Shown: positions 34,061 to 63,819 of the stretch, piece by piece
How positions within the stretch are numbered: position 1 is the first letter of the stretch
How the letters are laid out: the number at the start of each line of letters is the position of its first letter
Assembly (NCBI GenBank): GCA_903834475.1
Contig: CAILJH010000160.1
Span: forward strand, 1 to 64,000
Source: an uncultured Prolixibacteraceae bacterium
GTDB lineage: Bacteria > Bacteroidota > Bacteroidia > Bacteroidales > Prolixibacteraceae
Length of the DNA: 64,000 bases
Direction of reading: 5' to 3'
Notes under the pieces: generated by a model
Databases searched by the model: none
Seen by the model: the letters and a program-made list of their open reading frames with translations, nothing else
What the model was told of the DNA's origin: nothing
Made by a program: the position numbers and the translations under genes

Positions 34061-34080
34061 AGACGCACGGCCGTGCGTCT
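34061..34080. repeat. Perfect 20-bp palindrome in mnmA leader
   Basis: AGACGCACGGCCGTGCGTCT is self-complementary over all 20 bp. It lies 14 bp upstream of the mnmA ATG. Its sequence looks like a dispersed interspersed palindrome rather than a gene-specific operator. Confidence 0.85.
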
Positions 34081-34167: not shown

Positions 34168-34476
34168 CTACTCGGGCTTGCAGCGTGCCAGCACGAAACT
34201 GGTAATCAACTTTGCGTCACTCACCGAAATCTTTGCTTTGACTTGCATCTTCGGCATCGCTTGTAGCCAAATACTTCTGGAATACCTTTCAGGCTGACGC
34301 AGAGTGTGGCAACTTCCACACGATTTGACATACATTTCACGGCCAATGAGAAGGCTATCGACAGAGGTTCCGGCATGTCCGGCATCGGCACTGGTAGGCA
34401 GGTACAGTGCGGGACTGCACCCGAATAACAAAAATGCCAGGGAAACGACTATTCCGGCATGAAATTTAGAACGCAT
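34168..34476 (-). CDS. Small monoheme cytochrome c lipoprotein
   Basis: A 102-residue lipoprotein: signal MRSKFHAGIVVSLAFLLFGC (Cys20), then a haem c motif CGSCH (about residues 56–60) followed by TLRQPERYS. Distal Met candidates lie in LQAMPKMQVKAKIS. It is paralogous to the protein at 61921–62238: both share G-R-x-x-Y-V-x-x-C-G-x-C-H and a C-terminal S-x-S-D-A. Its start overlaps the end of the upstream barrel gene by 11 bp, so the two are translationally linked. Confidence 0.88.
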   Translation of the reverse strand: MRSKFHAGIVVSLAFLLFGCSPALYLPTSADAGHAGTSVDSLLIGREMYVKSCGSCHTLRQPERYSRSIWLQAMPKMQVKAKISVSDAKLITSFVLARCKPE

Positions 34477-35263
34477 ACGAAAAGATTAAACGGGTTTGAA
34501 GTCCGTCGTCGGATACCATGCTGCGGCTAACGGTTTTCAGATCGGTGAGTTGAGGCATCAGTGTAAAATTCACCCAAAAGCCTTGTCCTGAGTAAGAAAT
34601 GCCGGGACCAGCTTTCAACAGTGATTTCTGAAGTTCACCTTCAGCCAAAACATTTTCGTTCATTACTTCAACTCCGGCAAACCAATTTTCATTGATCCGG
34701 CAGGAGAACCCGTAGTTCAATTCCAGATTGATTTCTTTTTCAGTTTCAGTTAAGATGTGGTTTCCTTCCGGTGTAAATTTCTTTCCAAAACCCAGCTCCC
34801 CGACAAGGTTCAGGGCATGAATAAACCGACCTGTCTGTTTGTCCAGAATAATTTTTCCTTCCAAATCAGCTGTTTCAGGAGCAAGTTTATATTCAAGGTA
34901 AAACGCCGAGCCCAGCCTGTCTGCAACCGGATCGCTCAGTTTTAGCTTCCATTCATTCGAAAAACTGTACGAATTGTCTTTGGTTAAAATGTCCGTTCCG
35001 GTACTTTTGGTGATACCTTGGCTATATCCATAGTTCAGGTAGAATGCGGTTTGTAACTTACCGCCAAGGCCGACTTCGAATTCAATGCTGTGGTTCAATC
35101 CCCGGTAATAATCCTGACGACCAGTTCCCAAAGTGGTCCATACTTCAAGTTCTTTCTGACCTTTATTCAGTACATTACTTTGGTAGGTGTACGTGAAAAC
35201 ACGGTCTTGTGCTTTTGCACCCAGGGCCACGATCATAGCGGCTATAAATAGAGTTTTTCTCAT
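34466..35263 (-). CDS. Predicted outer-membrane beta-barrel protein
   Basis: The start at 35263 (MRKTLFIAAMIVALGAKAQ) gives a clean signal peptide; the longer reading from 35323 is unlikely. The 265-residue protein is made of alternating-pattern strands (for example KLQTAFYLNYGYSQG, GSAFYLEYKLAPETAD, GFWVNFTLMPQLT) and ends in LIFSYAF, with the terminal aromatic residue expected of Omp85/BAM substrates. Family not recognised. It overlaps the downstream cytochrome gene and lies 77 bp after a LuxR-type regulator gene. Confidence 0.8.
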   Translation of the reverse strand: MRKTLFIAAMIVALGAKAQDRVFTYTYQSNVLNKGQKELEVWTTLGTGRQDYYRGLNHSIEFEVGLGGKLQTAFYLNYGYSQGITKSTGTDILTKDNSYSFSNEWKLKLSDPVADRLGSAFYLEYKLAPETADLEGKIILDKQTGRFIHALNLVGELGFGKKFTPEGNHILTETEKEINLELNYGFSCRINENWFAGVEVMNENVLAEGELQKSLLKAGPGISYSGQGFWVNFTLMPQLTDLKTVSRSMVSDDGLQTRLIFSYAF

Positions 35264-35340
35264 TTGATGATTTTTTGTTCGTTTAACAGAAGCAAAAGTA
35301 CCGGAGGTACAATCATCAAACAATCCCTAAAAGTGGGGAT

Positions 35341-35943
35341 TTATATCAGATCTGCAGTATCGATGTCATTCACATCAATGATCTTTTTCAGGATGGCATA
35401 CATGGTCATTCCGGAAGCCGATTTAATCCCGGTTTTTTCTGAAATGTTCTTACGGTGTGAGATAACGGTATGGGTGCTGACAAACAGCTGGTCGGCAATT
35501 TCCTTGTTCGAAAGACCTTTGGTAATGAGTTGAAGGACTTCGGTTTCGCGTCGGGTGAGTTCGGTGTCTGTATCTCTGACCTGATTCACAGTAAATGAAT
35601 GCAGCACTTCGTTGACTTTGTAGCAAATCAGCGAAGGCGAGTCAAAAAGGTTTACCGATGGATTTGACGATACCGAATCCGGTTCTAAATTCAGGCAAAG
35701 AAACTGAGTATTACTGGCAACTGGGAGGACTTGCCGGATTAAAGCGGTGCTTTTTTCGAGTTCTTCCGAATCGGCTATCACCAGGAAATGGCCTGACAAA
35801 CCAGGGTAATCAATGATCTCGTCACCACGGTGGAGCAAAATAACTTCACTTGCCAGACTTCCTTTCAGAATTTCTGACAGGCCTGTCAGAACCACATCCG
35901 ACTGGCATATTACCATAATTGATTTATCGGGGCTGCTATTCAT
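35341..35943 (-). CDS. LuxR-family regulator with degenerate receiver domain
   Basis: A 200-residue protein. The C-terminal HTH (about 133–195) is classic LuxR/NarL: LTRRETEVLQLITKGLSNKE then IADQLFVSTHTVISHRKNI. The N-terminal 120 residues have the size of a receiver, but the usual acidic pair after strand 1 reads ICQSD, and the phospho-acceptor region (FLVIADSEELEKS) lacks the normal D-x-x-M-P context, so phosphorylation is doubtful. It overlaps the upstream hemerythrin gene by 8 bp, tying its role to that protein. Confidence 0.87.
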   Translation of the reverse strand: MNSSPDKSIMVICQSDVVLTGLSEILKGSLASEVILLHRGDEIIDYPGLSGHFLVIADSEELEKSTALIRQVLPVASNTQFLCLNLEPDSVSSNPSVNLFDSPSLICYKVNEVLHSFTVNQVRDTDTELTRRETEVLQLITKGLSNKEIADQLFVSTHTVISHRKNISEKTGIKSASGMTMYAILKKIIDVNDIDTADLI

Positions 35944-36667
35944 GGCTTTGTAAAAGCTTTTCGAGCTGTTTTACCTTTGGAAGCAGAATGTGGTCTTCGA
36001 TGCGTGAATGATTTTTCAGGTCCTTTTCAAAAAGGAAAAGGTTGGATAAAAAGGCATTGCCCCAGTTTTGATCGTAATTTGGAGGAAGGTATCTGATGAT
36101 TATATTTTTGAGGTCATCCATTTTATCGTCCATCGCCGAGTGTTCTTTTTCGAATCCTGAGATGGAATAATCCGGATATTTTTGCCTGAAATTTGGACGG
36201 GTCAGCGGATTTTCAATGACCGAATTCAGTTCAAGTATGTACGGGAACATCACCCTTTCTTCAAAATTGATATGAATAACGAACTCTTCCTTGAATTTTG
36301 CATAAAATTTACGGACCAGATCATTCTCGGCACTTTCCTCCGGATTGCCCGAAAGGAATAGTTCAATCAAACGGTCATTTTCAGGAATCAAAAAACCGAT
36401 GTAATACTGATGGGTTTTTACCAGGTAATCGATCACCATCGAAACCGGAAAATCGAGCAGCCGTTTTTCAGGAAAATAGGCTTCGTGATGAAAAACGTTG
36501 ATGGTTTCAACAAAAAAATTGAGGTCAATCATTTTTTCTTCGCAGATGTTTCGGATAGTCCGGTCACCAAAACCCAGTTTAATTCCCAAACGGTTAATTA
36601 CCGGCAAAAGCGAATGATCTTTATGGATGACCGCAGCAAGCTTGTTGTTCTCGTTAAACAATTCCAT
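35936..36667 (-). CDS. Hemerythrin-domain protein (YtfE/ScdA-like)
   Basis: A 243-residue di-iron hemerythrin-like protein. Candidate iron ligands are in VKTHQYY, VIHINFEERVMFPYI, GFEKEHSAMDDKM and NHSRIEDHILLPKV, the expected spacing of His and Glu in the four-helix bundle (from about residue 85). The N-terminal 60 residues (VIHKDHSLLPVINRLGIKLG) match the ScdA_N-type domain. YtfE/ScdA proteins repair iron-sulphur clusters or handle nitric oxide. Overlap with the LuxR-type gene suggests an O2- or NO-related switch, which is inference. Confidence 0.88.
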   Translation of the reverse strand: MELFNENNKLAAVIHKDHSLLPVINRLGIKLGFGDRTIRNICEEKMIDLNFFVETINVFHHEAYFPEKRLLDFPVSMVIDYLVKTHQYYIGFLIPENDRLIELFLSGNPEESAENDLVRKFYAKFKEEFVIHINFEERVMFPYILELNSVIENPLTRPNFRQKYPDYSISGFEKEHSAMDDKMDDLKNIIIRYLPPNYDQNWGNAFLSNLFLFEKDLKNHSRIEDHILLPKVKQLEKLLQSHE

Positions 36668-58178: not shown

Positions 58179-61100
58179 TTGGGCAAACACAATTCATATC
58201 GTATTTTATTTATTTCAGTATTGTTTTTTCTATCGGGTTGTTCGACTGAAAAGAATACTACTTTTTCCCGTGCCTACAATAATGTTACTGCACATTATAA
58301 TGTGTATTTTAATGGCAAGGAAAGCCTCCGGAAAGGAAAGGAAAAGATAGACAAATCGGTAGATGATGATTATTCGAAAGTTTTGCCGCTTTTTAAATCA
58401 AGTATACAATCCACAGCAACAGCCGCCAATTCCGATATGGATATTAGTATACTTAAAGGCTCAAAGCTTATCCAGTCACATTCGATTACCAAAAAGCCAA
58501 AACGCAAAAAGAACCGAACCAAATCGTACATCAAGTTTGCCAGTCGCGAAGAGTTTAATAATTGGGTTGACGATGCCTATCTCCTGATGGGTAAAGCCTA
58601 TTATTACAAACATAGCTATGCCTCGGCTGTCGAGAATTTCTCCTATGTAATCCGGAAGTTCGGTACTGATCCGTCGCGCTATACTGCATACGTCTGGTTA
58701 ATACGTTGCTATACTGAGACTGAAAGGTATGTTGAGGCTTTTGAAATTATCCAGCAGATGCAGACCGATGAAAATTTTCCGCATAGTCTTGAAGGTGAAT
58801 TTGCTGCAGCAACTGCAGACTACTATGCTCGGCAATTGTACTACAAAGAAGGAATTCCTTTTCTGTCAATTGCGGTAAAACAAACTGGTAAAAAGGAAGA
58901 TAAGCTGCGTTATAAATACGTTTTGGCACAATGGTACCAGCAAACTGATAATCCTGAAAAAGCTTCCCAGACTTTCAGGGAAATTGTCCGGATGGATCCG
59001 CCGTATAAAATGGCTTTTAATGCGCGTATCAGTGCTGCCGGAACTTTTACCGGGACCGGCGATGCGGAAAAGCTGAAAAAGGAATTGCATAAAATGCTTC
59101 GCGATAAAAAGAATCTGGAATTCAGGGATCAGATTTATTTTGCTATGGGTAAGATCTCACTGAAAGAAGGCAGTAAAAAACAGGCGCTGGAAGAATTTTC
59201 CAAATCGGCTTTTTTGAGCTCAACTAACCTTTATCAGCGGGCACTTTCGTGTCTGACACTTGCTCAGATTTATTTTGAGGAACCTGAATACAAAAAAGCT
59301 CAGAGTTACTACGACAGCGCCATGGTGGTTATCGACAATAAATACCCGAATTACCAGCAAATTTACGATCGCCATAAAAGTCTGACCCGGTTAACCGACA
59401 ACATTTACGCGGTAGAACGGGAAGACAGCCTCCAACGGATTGCCCATTTGGATGAAAAATCAAGAAATGCTTTGATTGACAAATGGATCGCCGATGTTTT
59501 GGCTAAAGAAGCAAAAGCCAAGTTAGCCGAATCGGAACAGATGCTGAATCAAAATTATTTCAGGCAGAATCAAAGTCGTTTTGGGTTGAGTCAGAAACAA
59601 GACGGAGCCGGATGGTATTTTTATAATCCAACCACGGTTGCCTACGGAAAAGTGGAATTTGAACGGCTTTGGGGTAAGCGAAAATTAGAAGATAACTGGC
59701 GAAGGGCGAATAAAAGCGCCAACGTTGAAGGCGATACAGAGCTTGCTGAAGATTCTCTTTTGAACGCCAAGGGAAAAGTTGTCAAGGTGAAAGATCCCAA
59801 AAACCGCGAATTCTATACGCAGGATTTGCCGGTAAACGATTCGTTAATGGCTGTTTCCCATGGAAAAATCCGGAATGCCTTGTTTAATGCGGGCCGTATC
59901 TTTAAAACTGATTTTAGCGATTTCCCGCGTGCAATCGGATCGTTCGAGGATCTGAATAAGCGTTATCCGGAAAATCTTTTCGCATTGTCTTCGTGGTTCG
60001 AATTGTATGATTTGTACACTAAACAAAAAAATCAGGAAAAGGCCGATTTCTATAAAAACCTGATTATTGGCAAATATCCCGATTCGAAGTATGCCAAATA
60101 TTTACAGAACCCTAATTATTTCATTGAACTTGAAGCTCGGGCCGATAGTGTGAACCGTCTGTATCAGAAAGTATTCATGGAATTTAAGAATGGCAATTAT
60201 GCTCAGTCCGGAAAAGTTGCTGATCAGATTATGCAAATGAAACCTGACAGTTTATTGATTCCAAAAATTAAATTCTTTCGGATCATTTCCGATGGAACTT
60301 CATCAACACGCGAAAATTTCAGTAAACTGCTTACCGATTATATTTCAACTTATCCAAAAGCAGAGCCTGTAACTTTTGCCGGTGAGATACTGAAGCTAAT
60401 TCAGGATAGCACTCTGATTGATTATCAGAAAATGGTTGCTTCAGGATACCTGAACGACCAGATTCAGAATAGCGAGTTACAACCAGGGAACAATAAAGGT
60501 GCCGATGAATTTGGAGGGAAATTTTCATACGATGAAGATTTACAGCACTATTTTGTGATTGCTTATCCGAAAGCAGCAAATATTGATCTTAACCAGCTGA
60601 AATTTGATCTGGCCAATTACAACATTGACCATTATACGAAAGTCGATTTTGATATTGAGACACAGACGCTGAACGCCAATACTTCCTTGTTACTGGTGCG
60701 TTCGCTCAATGACAAAGAGCAGGGGCTGATTTATTTCCGGTCGATTATCAAAAGAAGGAATGTTTTTGAATCGCTTAAAAAGATCAAATACGTCAATTTT
60801 ATTGCCTCTTCAACTAATTTCAGGGAAATAACAACCGACAAGGATTATGCAGAATACCTGAAATTCTTTGTCAAGAATTACAGTCATTTTATTACCGGCG
60901 ATTTCTCCGACGAATTACTTCCCGAGCCTGAAGAACTGTTGGCAAAGGCTCAGCATGATGAGGATCTGCCGAAGGAAAAGGGTTCATTTGTATCGATCAA
61001 TCCGGTTAGTTCGGGTTCCGATTTATATTCAAACGAAGAAAGTGGTAAGCAGAATTTTGTAATAGCGGTTAACCTACCGGGAGCAAACCTGAAATCGGTT

Positions 61101-61802
61101 ACCTCAGCTTTCTCTGCGCATAACCGCGATCAGTTCCGTTCTTCAAATCTCACAATCAGCCAAAGTCAGGTTGCCGATTATCAGCTGATGGTTGTCGGTT
61201 CGTTTAAAACCAAAACTGAGGCCATCGCGTACTTTACCAAATCGGTTACCAACCGGAAATTGTTCCGTAGCCTCGATACTTTGAGCTACCGTAATTTTAT
61301 AATTGCTGATGCCAACCTGAAAAAACTTACTGAGACCAAACGGATTTCTGATTACCTGAACTTCTTCAACACCAAATACATTGATGCTGTTGCAAATACC
61401 CATAATGCTGCAGATGCCGCTTATAAAGGTCCGTACAGTCCGTCTGTTGATGCTGCTCAATCCTACTTCCTGATCATTCCAAAGGAAGAAGTCAATGCAG
61501 ATCAGCTTGTTGAGGCGATCCGGAAATTCAATGAGCTGAATTATCCGAAACCAGCGCTAAGTGTGACTTCGGCTATGCTCGATGATTTCAGGATACTCGT
61601 TAAAGTGGAAGGACTTCCTGACTTGAAATCCGGTTTGGCCTATTTGCGTGCCATCGTCAAAGACCAGCAGGTATATGGTCCTATTCAAAATGCAAACTAC
61701 CGGAACTTCATCATTACTCCTGAAAATGAAACAGTTTTCAAAAAGGACAAGAACATCCTTACGTATATGGAATTCTACAAACAGTTTTATCTCAAACAAT
61801 AG
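58179..61802 (+). CDS. SprE/PorW-like type IX secretion lipoprotein, TTG start
   Basis: A 1207-residue TPR-rich lipoprotein. The signal (ISVLFFLSGC, Cys21) is followed by FSRAYNNVTAHYNVYFNGKE, diagnostic of SprE/PorW, an essential type IX secretion component that links the translocon to other parts of the machine. TPR units follow to about 700, and the C-terminal part holds three related repeats beginning HYFVIAYP, NFVIAVNLPG and SYFLIIPKEE. A stop codon lies at 58158–58160 in frame, and no ATG precedes the signal, so TTG at 58179 is the likely start. A CxxCH lipoprotein and porX follow on the same strand. Confidence 0.9.
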   Translation: MGKHNSYRILFISVLFFLSGCSTEKNTTFSRAYNNVTAHYNVYFNGKESLRKGKEKIDKSVDDDYSKVLPLFKSSIQSTATAANSDMDISILKGSKLIQSHSITKKPKRKKNRTKSYIKFASREEFNNWVDDAYLLMGKAYYYKHSYASAVENFSYVIRKFGTDPSRYTAYVWLIRCYTETERYVEAFEIIQQMQTDENFPHSLEGEFAAATADYYARQLYYKEGIPFLSIAVKQTGKKEDKLRYKYVLAQWYQQTDNPEKASQTFREIVRMDPPYKMAFNARISAAGTFTGTGDAEKLKKELHKMLRDKKNLEFRDQIYFAMGKISLKEGSKKQALEEFSKSAFLSSTNLYQRALSCLTLAQIYFEEPEYKKAQSYYDSAMVVIDNKYPNYQQIYDRHKSLTRLTDNIYAVEREDSLQRIAHLDEKSRNALIDKWIADVLAKEAKAKLAESEQMLNQNYFRQNQSRFGLSQKQDGAGWYFYNPTTVAYGKVEFERLWGKRKLEDNWRRANKSANVEGDTELAEDSLLNAKGKVVKVKDPKNREFYTQDLPVNDSLMAVSHGKIRNALFNAGRIFKTDFSDFPRAIGSFEDLNKRYPENLFALSSWFELYDLYTKQKNQEKADFYKNLIIGKYPDSKYAKYLQNPNYFIELEARADSVNRLYQKVFMEFKNGNYAQSGKVADQIMQMKPDSLLIPKIKFFRIISDGTSSTRENFSKLLTDYISTYPKAEPVTFAGEILKLIQDSTLIDYQKMVASGYLNDQIQNSELQPGNNKGADEFGGKFSYDEDLQHYFVIAYPKAANIDLNQLKFDLANYNIDHYTKVDFDIETQTLNANTSLLLVRSLNDKEQGLIYFRSIIKRRNVFESLKKIKYVNFIASSTNFREITTDKDYAEYLKFFVKNYSHFITGDFSDELLPEPEELLAKAQHDEDLPKEKGSFVSINPVSSGSDLYSNEESGKQNFVIAVNLPGANLKSVTSAFSAHNRDQFRSSNLTISQSQVADYQLMVVGSFKTKTEAIAYFTKSVTNRKLFRSLDTLSYRNFIIADANLKKLTETKRISDYLNFFNTKYIDAVANTHNAADAAYKGPYSPSVDAAQSYFLIIPKEEVNADQLVEAIRKFNELNYPKPALSVTSAMLDDFRILVKVEGLPDLKSGLAYLRAIVKDQQVYGPIQNANYRNFIITPENETVFKKDKNILTYMEFYKQFYLKQ

Positions 61803-61920
61803 ATTGTTCGAAGGTTAAAGTATGTTAAGTCAATACTATTTTCAATTTTCAATTGTTTATTGCAGTAATACATTTTAATCAAAGTGTAGCTTGACGATTT
61901 TATTTACTTATTTATTTTTT

Positions 61921-62238
61921 ATGAAGAGATTAAAATTACTTCCAGTGATGTTTGTTAGCTTGTTCTTAATTACCTCATGTCAAAAAAACATCACGGTTCC
62001 GGATACTTCAGCCTATGTTCCTACAGCTTCGGATGTCACGAAAACGGCCACACTGGCTCAATTGTCGCAGGGACGTTCCCTGTATGTGAATAATTGCGGA
62101 AGATGTCACGGATTACCATCACCCGATAGCTATTCGGCTTCTAACTGGAATATCATCCTGGGAAACATGATTCCAAGGACTCAAATGTCAGCTTCTGATG
62201 CAGCATTGGTTTCAAAGTATGTCAGGAGAGGCAACTAA
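61921..62238 (+). CDS. Small monoheme cytochrome c lipoprotein in T9SS cluster
   Basis: The start at 61921 (MKRLKLLPVMFVSLFLITSC) gives a lipoprotein with Cys20; an in-frame ATG at 61891 adds ten residues. The 105-residue protein has CGRCHG (haem c) about 40 residues after the lipid Cys, and Met residues in ILGNMIPRTQM as possible axial ligands. It is paralogous to 34168–34476. It sits between sprE and porX on the same strand, 24 bp before porX, so it may be co-transcribed with the T9SS regulator. Confidence 0.88.
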   Translation: MKRLKLLPVMFVSLFLITSCQKNITVPDTSAYVPTASDVTKTATLAQLSQGRSLYVNNCGRCHGLPSPDSYSASNWNIILGNMIPRTQMSASDAALVSKYVRRGN

Positions 62239-62262: not shown

Positions 62263-63819
62263 ATGAAGAAAACTAAAATACTCTGGACCGACGACGAAAT
62301 CGATCTTTTACGTGCTCACATCATTTTCCTTCAGGAAAAGGGATTTGAAGTTGTTACGGCCAATAATGGTTCCGATGCCATTGAGCTGGTTCGGAAAGAT
62401 TTTTTCGATATCATTTTCCTGGATGAAAACATGCCCGGATTAAGCGGTTTGCAAACCCTGAATGAGATAAAATCGATCGATCCGAATGTTCCTGTGGTAA
62501 TGATTACCAAAAGCGAGGAGGAGGATATTATGGACGAGGCAATTGGCTCGAAAATGGCTGATTACCTGATAAAACCCGTCAATCCGAATCAAATTCTTCT
62601 GACTATAAAAAAGAATGTCGACCAGCGTCGGCTGGTTACTCAACGTACCACGTCGGCTTACCAAAGTGAGTTCGGGAAAATCGGACTGCAAATCAGTGAC
62701 CGCCTTTCATTTGCCGAATGGGTCGAAGTTTACCGGAAACTGGTATTCTGGGAACTTGAGCTCAGCACCTCCGGAGATTCGGCCATGGATGAGGTCCTGA
62801 AAATGCAAAAATCAGAAGCCAATCATTCTTTTGCACGATACATCCGTGGTAACTATCAGTCCTGGTTTGGGGCTAATTCAGTTGATCGTCCTCTGCTTTC
62901 TCCGGATATCTTCAGAAACAAAATATTTCCTCAGGTCGAAGATGGCAATAAAGTTTTCGTTCTGGTCATCGACAATTTGAGGTATGACCAGTACCGTGTT
63001 TTGGCCACAGTTTTGAGTAATTATTACCATATCGAAGATGAAGATCTGTATTGCAGCATTCTTCCAACTGCGACCATGTATGCCCGAAATGCCATGTTTG
63101 CCGGTTTGATGCCTACTGAAATTGAACGTTTATATCCTGAATTCTGGGACGATGACGACAACGAAGGTCATAAGAATCGCTTTGAAAAAGAGCTGTTAAT
63201 GAAGCAACTTTCGAGGTTGGGAAAGAATTACAAACTGTTTTTCGAGAAAATTACCAATGTAAAAGGCGACAAAAAAATGAGCGACTACCTCGGGAGTATT
63301 CTCCAGAGCGACCTGTCTGTGATGGTTTTCAATTTTGTGGATATGATTTCACACGCACGCACCGAAATGGATATGATCAAGGAACTGGCCAGCGACGAAG
63401 CGGCTTACCGATCGCTTACGCTGAGTTGGTTTAATCACTCATCGCTTCTCGATTTGCTGAAACTACTCGCTGAAAATAAAGTGAAGGTCGTGTTGACAAC
63501 CGATCATGGCAGCATTCGGGTTGATAATCCGCTGAAGGTGATTGGTGACCGTGAAACCAACACCAATCTTCGTTACAAACTGGGGCGAAACCTCAATTAC
63601 AAATCGAAAACTATTTACGATATAAAGAATCCGGCATCAATTAATCTTCCCTCAAGGAATGTGAGTACTTCGTATATTTTTGCGACCAATACCGATTTCT
63701 TTGCATATCCAAACAATTACAACTATTACGCACAATATTACCGGAACACGTTTCAGCACGGAGGCGTTTCCCTGGAAGAAATGATCATTCCGGTAGTGAC
63801 CTTGACACCAAAAGGTTAA
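62263..63819 (+). CDS. porX: PorX-type response regulator with PglZ domain
   Basis: PorX regulates the type IX secretion genes and also binds the PorL/PorM components. The 518-residue protein has a receiver (about 1–125; KILWTDDEIDLLRAHIIF, phospho-acceptor Asp54 in IIFLDENMPG, Lys in YLIKPVNPN), a helical linker and a C-terminal PglZ domain (about 205–515) of the alkaline phosphatase superfamily, with VLVIDNLRYDQYR and VVLTTDHGSIRVD holding metal ligands. It is a full-length, intact member and follows the cytochrome gene by 24 bp. Confidence 0.94.
   Translation: MKKTKILWTDDEIDLLRAHIIFLQEKGFEVVTANNGSDAIELVRKDFFDIIFLDENMPGLSGLQTLNEIKSIDPNVPVVMITKSEEEDIMDEAIGSKMADYLIKPVNPNQILLTIKKNVDQRRLVTQRTTSAYQSEFGKIGLQISDRLSFAEWVEVYRKLVFWELELSTSGDSAMDEVLKMQKSEANHSFARYIRGNYQSWFGANSVDRPLLSPDIFRNKIFPQVEDGNKVFVLVIDNLRYDQYRVLATVLSNYYHIEDEDLYCSILPTATMYARNAMFAGLMPTEIERLYPEFWDDDDNEGHKNRFEKELLMKQLSRLGKNYKLFFEKITNVKGDKKMSDYLGSILQSDLSVMVFNFVDMISHARTEMDMIKELASDEAAYRSLTLSWFNHSSLLDLLKLLAENKVKVVLTTDHGSIRVDNPLKVIGDRETNTNLRYKLGRNLNYKSKTIYDIKNPASINLPSRNVSTSYIFATNTDFFAYPNNYNYYAQYYRNTFQHGGVSLEEMIIPVVTLTPKG

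Follow-up and report, generated by a model that had tools for sequence, protein, structure and literature searches.

Locus organization

The stretch of DNA analysed here (the window) spans 64,000 nucleotides and comes from an uncultured Prolixibacteraceae bacterium, whose genome assembly is fragmented and 66% complete and whose close named relatives are mostly Prolixibacteraceae MAGs. Four genes follow each other in a row on its minus strand, from position 36667 to 34168, and encode a hemerythrin-domain protein, a LuxR-type regulator, a predicted beta-barrel and a small cytochrome. They are flanked on the same strand by a DEAD-box helicase gene upstream and by mnmA downstream. The features of the locus are the following:

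35936..36667, minus strand: RIC-like di-iron (hemerythrin-domain) protein, 243 aa, with a degenerate ScdA_N domain and a hemerythrin domain; proposed iron-state sensor
35341..35943, minus strand: LuxR-type regulator, 200 aa, with a pseudo-receiver and a GerE domain; putative CdhR-type partner of the di-iron protein
35322..35341, minus strand: candidate operator AATCCCCACTTTTAGGGATT, a palindrome of 20 bp whose first base also ends the luxR stop codon
35293..35300, minus strand: TACTTTTG, presumed -7 box of Bacteroidota type, whose start lies 21 nt after the palindrome; putative promoter for the barrel and cytochrome genes
34466..35263, minus strand: predicted outer-membrane beta-barrel of family DUF6662, 265 aa with signal peptide
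34168..34476, minus strand: monohaem c-type lipoprotein, 102 aa, with lipobox, CGSCH and distal Met77

The original prediction had described four co-directional genes with overlaps, and the ORF coordinates agree with it: the di-iron gene overlaps luxR by 8 bp and the barrel gene overlaps the cytochrome gene by 11 bp. The gene identities it had proposed also hold. The di-iron protein matches PF01814 (42.1 bits, cut-off 25.3), the LuxR protein PF00196 (65 bits, cut-off 23.5) and the barrel DUF6662 (PF20367; 35.9 bits, gathering cut-off 27). No Pfam family scores above cut-off for the cytochrome, which is recognized by its lipobox and CGSCH motif. For the barrel, the listed TTG start at 35323 is unlikely, since the signal peptide begins with MRKTLFIAA at the ATG 35263, which we retain as the start.

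The gap of 77 bp between luxR and the barrel gene contains its own promoter-like box and an operator-like palindrome. For this reason a single four-gene operon was rejected, and the four genes probably form two transcription units, di-iron-luxR and barrel-cytochrome. A promoter-like TACTTTTG box also precedes the downstream mnmA, in the gap that separates it from the cytochrome gene. Another perfect palindrome, AGACGCACGGCCGTGCGTCT, lies before mnmA at positions 34061-34080 of the window and is REP-like; similar elements are found at the equivalent place in several genomes of the genus (L008, L011, L035).

The di-iron protein and its LuxR-type partner

The di-iron protein shares with the RIC/YtfE/ScdA family the two-domain layout and all six metal ligands. 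These residues (H86, H132, E136, H176, H220 and E224) are invariant in 14 aligned sequences and correspond, in the alignment to YtfE structures, to the di-iron ligands H84, H129, E133, H160, H204 and E208 of YtfE (PMC9268430). The protein aligns over most of the RIC model TIGR03652, with a score of 67.6 bits that remains below the equivalog cut-off of 204.7. It also differs from the family in being encoded together with a LuxR protein and in having lost the CC motif of the ScdA_N domain (DfCCgG), in place of which it carries LGFGD. Three class-level relatives without a LuxR partner score above the TIGR03652 cut-off as canonical RICs; the di-iron protein of the pair thus looks like a distinct branch. 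In spite of the loss of the CC motif, each of the 14 aligned sequences retains C42 within the degenerate ScdA_N domain, a possible redox or metal thiol.

The AlphaFold2 model of the LuxR protein displays a receiver-like domain (mean pLDDT 82.5) and matches full-length structures of NarL, FixJ, LiaR and RcsB (Foldseek E about 1e-8), regulators with which it shares this domain together with the GerE DNA-binding domain. Contrary to them, it lacks the acidic pocket, with CQ in place of the DD pair, and its relatives do not conserve the phospho-Asp position. These substitutions make phosphorylation of the LuxR protein unlikely and agree with the pseudo-receiver originally assigned to it. Moreover, no histidine kinase gene was found next to the pair, either at the window locus or at the pair loci examined.

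A couple of the same layout has been described in other Bacteroidota as a hemerythrin and CdhR: PG1236-PG1237 in Porphyromonas gingivalis, BT_0519-BT_0520 in Bacteroides thetaiotaomicron and one fused protein in Prevotella intermedia (PMC10434189). Iron depletion induces it about 7-fold in P. gingivalis and 16-20-fold in B. thetaiotaomicron (PMC10434189), and CdhR is described as activating the hmu genes for haem uptake (PMC10101095). We liken the two by layout: in the window a di-iron/hemerythrin gene is followed by an overlapping LuxR-type gene, and fusions occur in relatives. The difference lies in the target, no barrel and cytochrome operon being described in PMC10434189, and our literature search returned neither a published operator nor a di-iron role for the CdhR pair. 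Hence the earlier statement that no named system has this composition has to be divided. Its first two genes appear to form a regulator pair of a kind already described; novelty, relative to the literature found, seems to lie in the operator, in the barrel-cytochrome target and in the set of four genes as a whole.

Conservation of the pair and its neighbours

Judged by adjacency, the pair is conserved across the order. Outside the genus, 27 genomes of the order have a strong di-iron match; di-iron gene and luxR are adjacent on the same strand in 25 of them and lie on different contigs in the remaining two. In two genomes (G054, G055) they are fused into one ORF. Di-iron ORFs of 320 aa from other orders were considered as further fusions and rejected; no HTH was found in them and they are merely long open frames.

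The neighbours of the pair are repeatedly genes of iron or metal uptake. It adjoins feoAB in five further genera devoid of the barrel (G028, G059, G057, G044, G038), with an OprB porin inserted between pair and feoAB in two of the pair-feoAB loci. Elsewhere it adjoins a ferritin gene (L150), ZIP/CDF metal transporters (L143, L138, L139) or, as recognized by eye, TonB receptors (G407). It is divergent from a flavodoxin gene in G290 (L237) and G298 (L240), as recognized by eye in the translations. In G290 a DUF2023 gene, also identified by eye, stands beside the flavodoxin, an iron-linked context that reproduces the arrangement of BT_0516-0520.

This context bears on the signal. The original prediction had put forward NO or O2, the di-iron protein reacting with these gases as RIC proteins do and the LuxR protein switching an envelope electron-transfer or repair function. 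Indeed, RIC relatives are NO-induced and NO-reactive (PMC9268430) and the di-iron ligands are all intact. Nevertheless, no NO-metabolism gene was seen beside these genes in the lineages examined, where iron and metal uptake genes are found instead, both as neighbours and behind the common promoter site described below, and the published pair of the same layout responds to iron depletion (PMC10434189). We therefore regard sensing of NO or O2 as highly improbable, and the reading of the locus moves, with fair confidence on our part, from NO or redox sensing to iron starvation. NO or O2 could nonetheless modulate iron sensing if it proceeds through a labile di-iron site.

In one genome of the genus (G014, L047), the luxR-mnmA interval contains about 1.1 kb of other DNA, where other genomes have barrel-cytochrome or nothing. 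This insert begins with a nucleotidyltransferase-like ORF and includes a second LuxR-type HTH fragment.

A palindrome at a fixed distance from the -7 box

The 20-bp palindrome between luxR and the barrel gene has the form AATCCC-N8-GGGATT and precedes by 21 nt the TACTTTTG box, which we take to be a Bacteroidota-type -7 box. Allowing at most 2 mismatches, ten genomes of the genus contain 23 such sites, versus 3 for the reversed pattern. By our count, 17 of the 23 stand before barrel-cytochrome, OprB-feoAB, feoAB, porin/FMN_bind or TonB-receptor genes. Flavodoxin genes and, in relatives, the di-iron/luxR pair itself are also preceded by the palindrome.

The site is associated with luxR outside the genus as well. 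Of 23 luxR 3′ gaps from non-genus loci, 8 contain it within 130 bp after the gene when up to 2 of 12 arm mismatches are allowed, compared with 1.1% of the background windows; such luxR-adjacent sites come from several families and also from beyond the class. Seven pair loci examined later gave 14 flanking windows, 5 of which contained it. Two loci (L138, L139) have a porin/FMN_bind operon directly after the pair, with an exact palindrome in the gap. Operons in which an outer-membrane channel accompanies FeoAB behind the same palindrome (OprB-feoAB; L179, L181, L183, L148) are comparable to the window operon in that respect, whereas OprB is unrelated to the DUF6662 barrel and a cytochrome is missing.

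The spacing is rigid. We assembled 47 sites, selected by the palindrome and by their position before an uptake, flavodoxin, ferritin or di-iron gene and not by the -7 box; they include orthologous promoters of close relatives, about 19 being independent by our count. At an offset of 21 nt, 35 of these 47 sites have a -7 box with a score of 5 or 6 out of 6, compared with a mean of 0.39 at other offsets. Among nine palindromes away from recognized uptake genes, the box was present only at two, both in L220. A scan for promoters of sigma70 type and for terminators gave no more than chance; promoters in these organisms are of a different type.

Palindromes also occur in genomes without a detected pair, and many of those in the whole-genome count are GC-centred hairpins that inflate it. 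Those checked in two genomes (G025, G032) fall within coding sequence and have no -7 box. The case of G006 is of another kind, since good sites with a -7 box are present there and no pair was detected. This observation, the fur gene found in the barrel locus of one genome (G260, see below) and the fact that no palindrome was observed ahead of the di-iron gene in the genus would fit with the site of another iron regulator, of Fur/DtxR type or other. The pair would then be a mere member of the regulon and control other genes, and barrel and cytochrome would remain iron-regulated uptake proteins. We find this alternative unlikely. A palindrome in the gap immediately 3′ of luxR, found in several families and also beyond the class, is the arrangement expected of a regulator and its adjacent target, and the spacing of 21 nt to the -7 box fits an activator, whereas Fur/DtxR regulators usually repress. 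As for G006, its assembly is fragmented into 1070 contigs, in which the pair may have been lost.

The barrel-cytochrome module

DUF6662 has no assigned function and we found no mention of it in the literature. The predicted structure of the window barrel consists mostly of long strands and is of low confidence (mean pLDDT 54.9), so that its best Foldseek matches, the outer-membrane channels FapF and COG4313, should be taken with caution. Few genomes of the phylum encode such barrels (18 of 395, some of the matches being weak). A monohaem lipoprotein gene is found directly 3′ of nearly every strong barrel locus examined, other families included, and usually overlaps it. Relatives of the cytochrome conserve the CxxCH motif, the distal Met, one Trp and, almost always, the lipobox Cys. 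The link to an envelope function made in the original prediction is supported; the association of DUF6662 with a monohaem lipoprotein and with an iron context appears to be new here.

Among the genus genomes searched (G000-G022), six possess the barrel, our own included, and wherever both flanks are readable it is located between luxR and mnmA. Carriers are scattered over the di-iron/luxR tree, which suggests that the barrel was repeatedly lost within the genus. An apparent barrel-cytochrome fusion in G016 was discarded as an assembly gap of N. The four genes are found in the same order in these six genomes and in two other lineages, L049 and G074, the latter belonging to the same phylum outside the class and carrying the complete set. 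Co-occurrence, the check named in the original prediction, holds for the whole set, which recurs beyond chance, and is only partial for its second half, present in only six of the genus genomes searched; together with the separate promoter-like site, this makes the description as one four-gene operon too strong.

In other lineages the module is combined with iron genes: one run contains di-iron gene, luxR, feoAB, barrel and cytochrome (G095), another fur, feoA, feoB, barrel and cytochrome (G260). Several barrel-cytochrome loci have no adjoining iron gene, and feoB was not found in the 66% of the window's own genome that is covered. Taking together the iron and metal uptake neighbours, the common palindrome and the published induction of a like pair upon iron depletion, the assignment of the barrel-cytochrome operon to an iron regulon is well supported.

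Alternatively, barrel and cytochrome could constitute a device for extracellular electron transfer or Fe(II) oxidation, a sort of split Cyc2-like cytochrome-porin serving respiration and not iron nutrition. A monohaem c cytochrome beside an outer-membrane barrel does resemble the parts of Cyc2 (PMC8406198). However, the window proteins are small, unfused and encoded by separate overlapping genes, and the barrel is smaller than Cyc2. Their promoter site is common to genes of nutrient iron (TonB receptors, feoAB, flavodoxin), and feoAB or fur adjoin the module in other lineages, a regulatory context of iron uptake and not of iron respiration. We consider a respiratory role very unlikely.

A second monohaem c lipoprotein, 37% identical to the cytochrome, is encoded in the window at 61891-62238 on the plus strand. 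It lies between two genes whose products were named by eye: 58179-61802 would code for a large TPR-like protein similar to SprE/PorW, and 62263-63819 for a response regulator similar to PorX.

A model for iron-responsive control

Little is known about the way in which Bacteroidota, which are abundant in the gut, the mouth and sediment, switch on their iron uptake, and the locus hints at a DNA switch common to many iron-uptake genes of this bacterial group. We propose that it is an iron-acquisition unit, in which an iron-starvation activator pair stands beside one of its targets, an outer-membrane module for iron uptake or iron reduction; we hold this to be probable. When iron is scarce, the di-iron centre would be lost or changed in redox state, thereby altering the di-iron protein, which in turn would free or activate the LuxR protein without phosphorylation. 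As position and spacing suggest, a LuxR dimer would then bind AATCCC-N8-GGGATT just upstream of the promoter and activate transcription. The second operon, directly downstream behind the palindrome, would provide the DUF6662 channel and, on the periplasmic side of the outer membrane, the monohaem lipoprotein. Both together would probably pass iron through the outer membrane, change its redox state and deliver Fe2+ for FeoAB, this being the weakest step of the model.

On a wider scale, the pair could be the master iron-starvation activator of Bacteroidales and of some related lineages, in which a RIC-like di-iron centre would gate a LuxR protein that is not phosphorylated. It would act through an operator, AATCCC-N8-GGGATT or the AATCAC/AATACC variant, located exactly 21 nt upstream of the -7 box in the promoters of its own gene and of those for TonB receptors, porins, FeoAB and flavodoxin. 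Within this regulon, the DUF6662 barrel and its monohaem lipoprotein would represent a new device of the outer membrane for taking up iron by reducing it. We put forward this extended scheme tentatively, as possible rather than probable. The analysis supplies a concrete candidate operator rigidly spaced from the promoter, together with a list of targets and a candidate for the di-iron sensor, hence a directly testable question, as well as a first functional hypothesis for the DUF6662 outer-membrane family and its cytochrome partner.

Other genes associated with the palindrome

Two further kinds of genes were encountered during this survey. A second conserved operon encodes a porin of 405 aa together with a small FMN_bind protein (L172, L173, L175, L177, L138, L139, L242); it is located behind the palindrome in the genus and adjoins the di-iron/LuxR pair in other genera. 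At three loci (L225, L227, L230) the palindrome stands before a gene for a small His-rich protein, here at 20 nt from the -7 box, and a similar protein precedes a TonB receptor at a fourth (L233).
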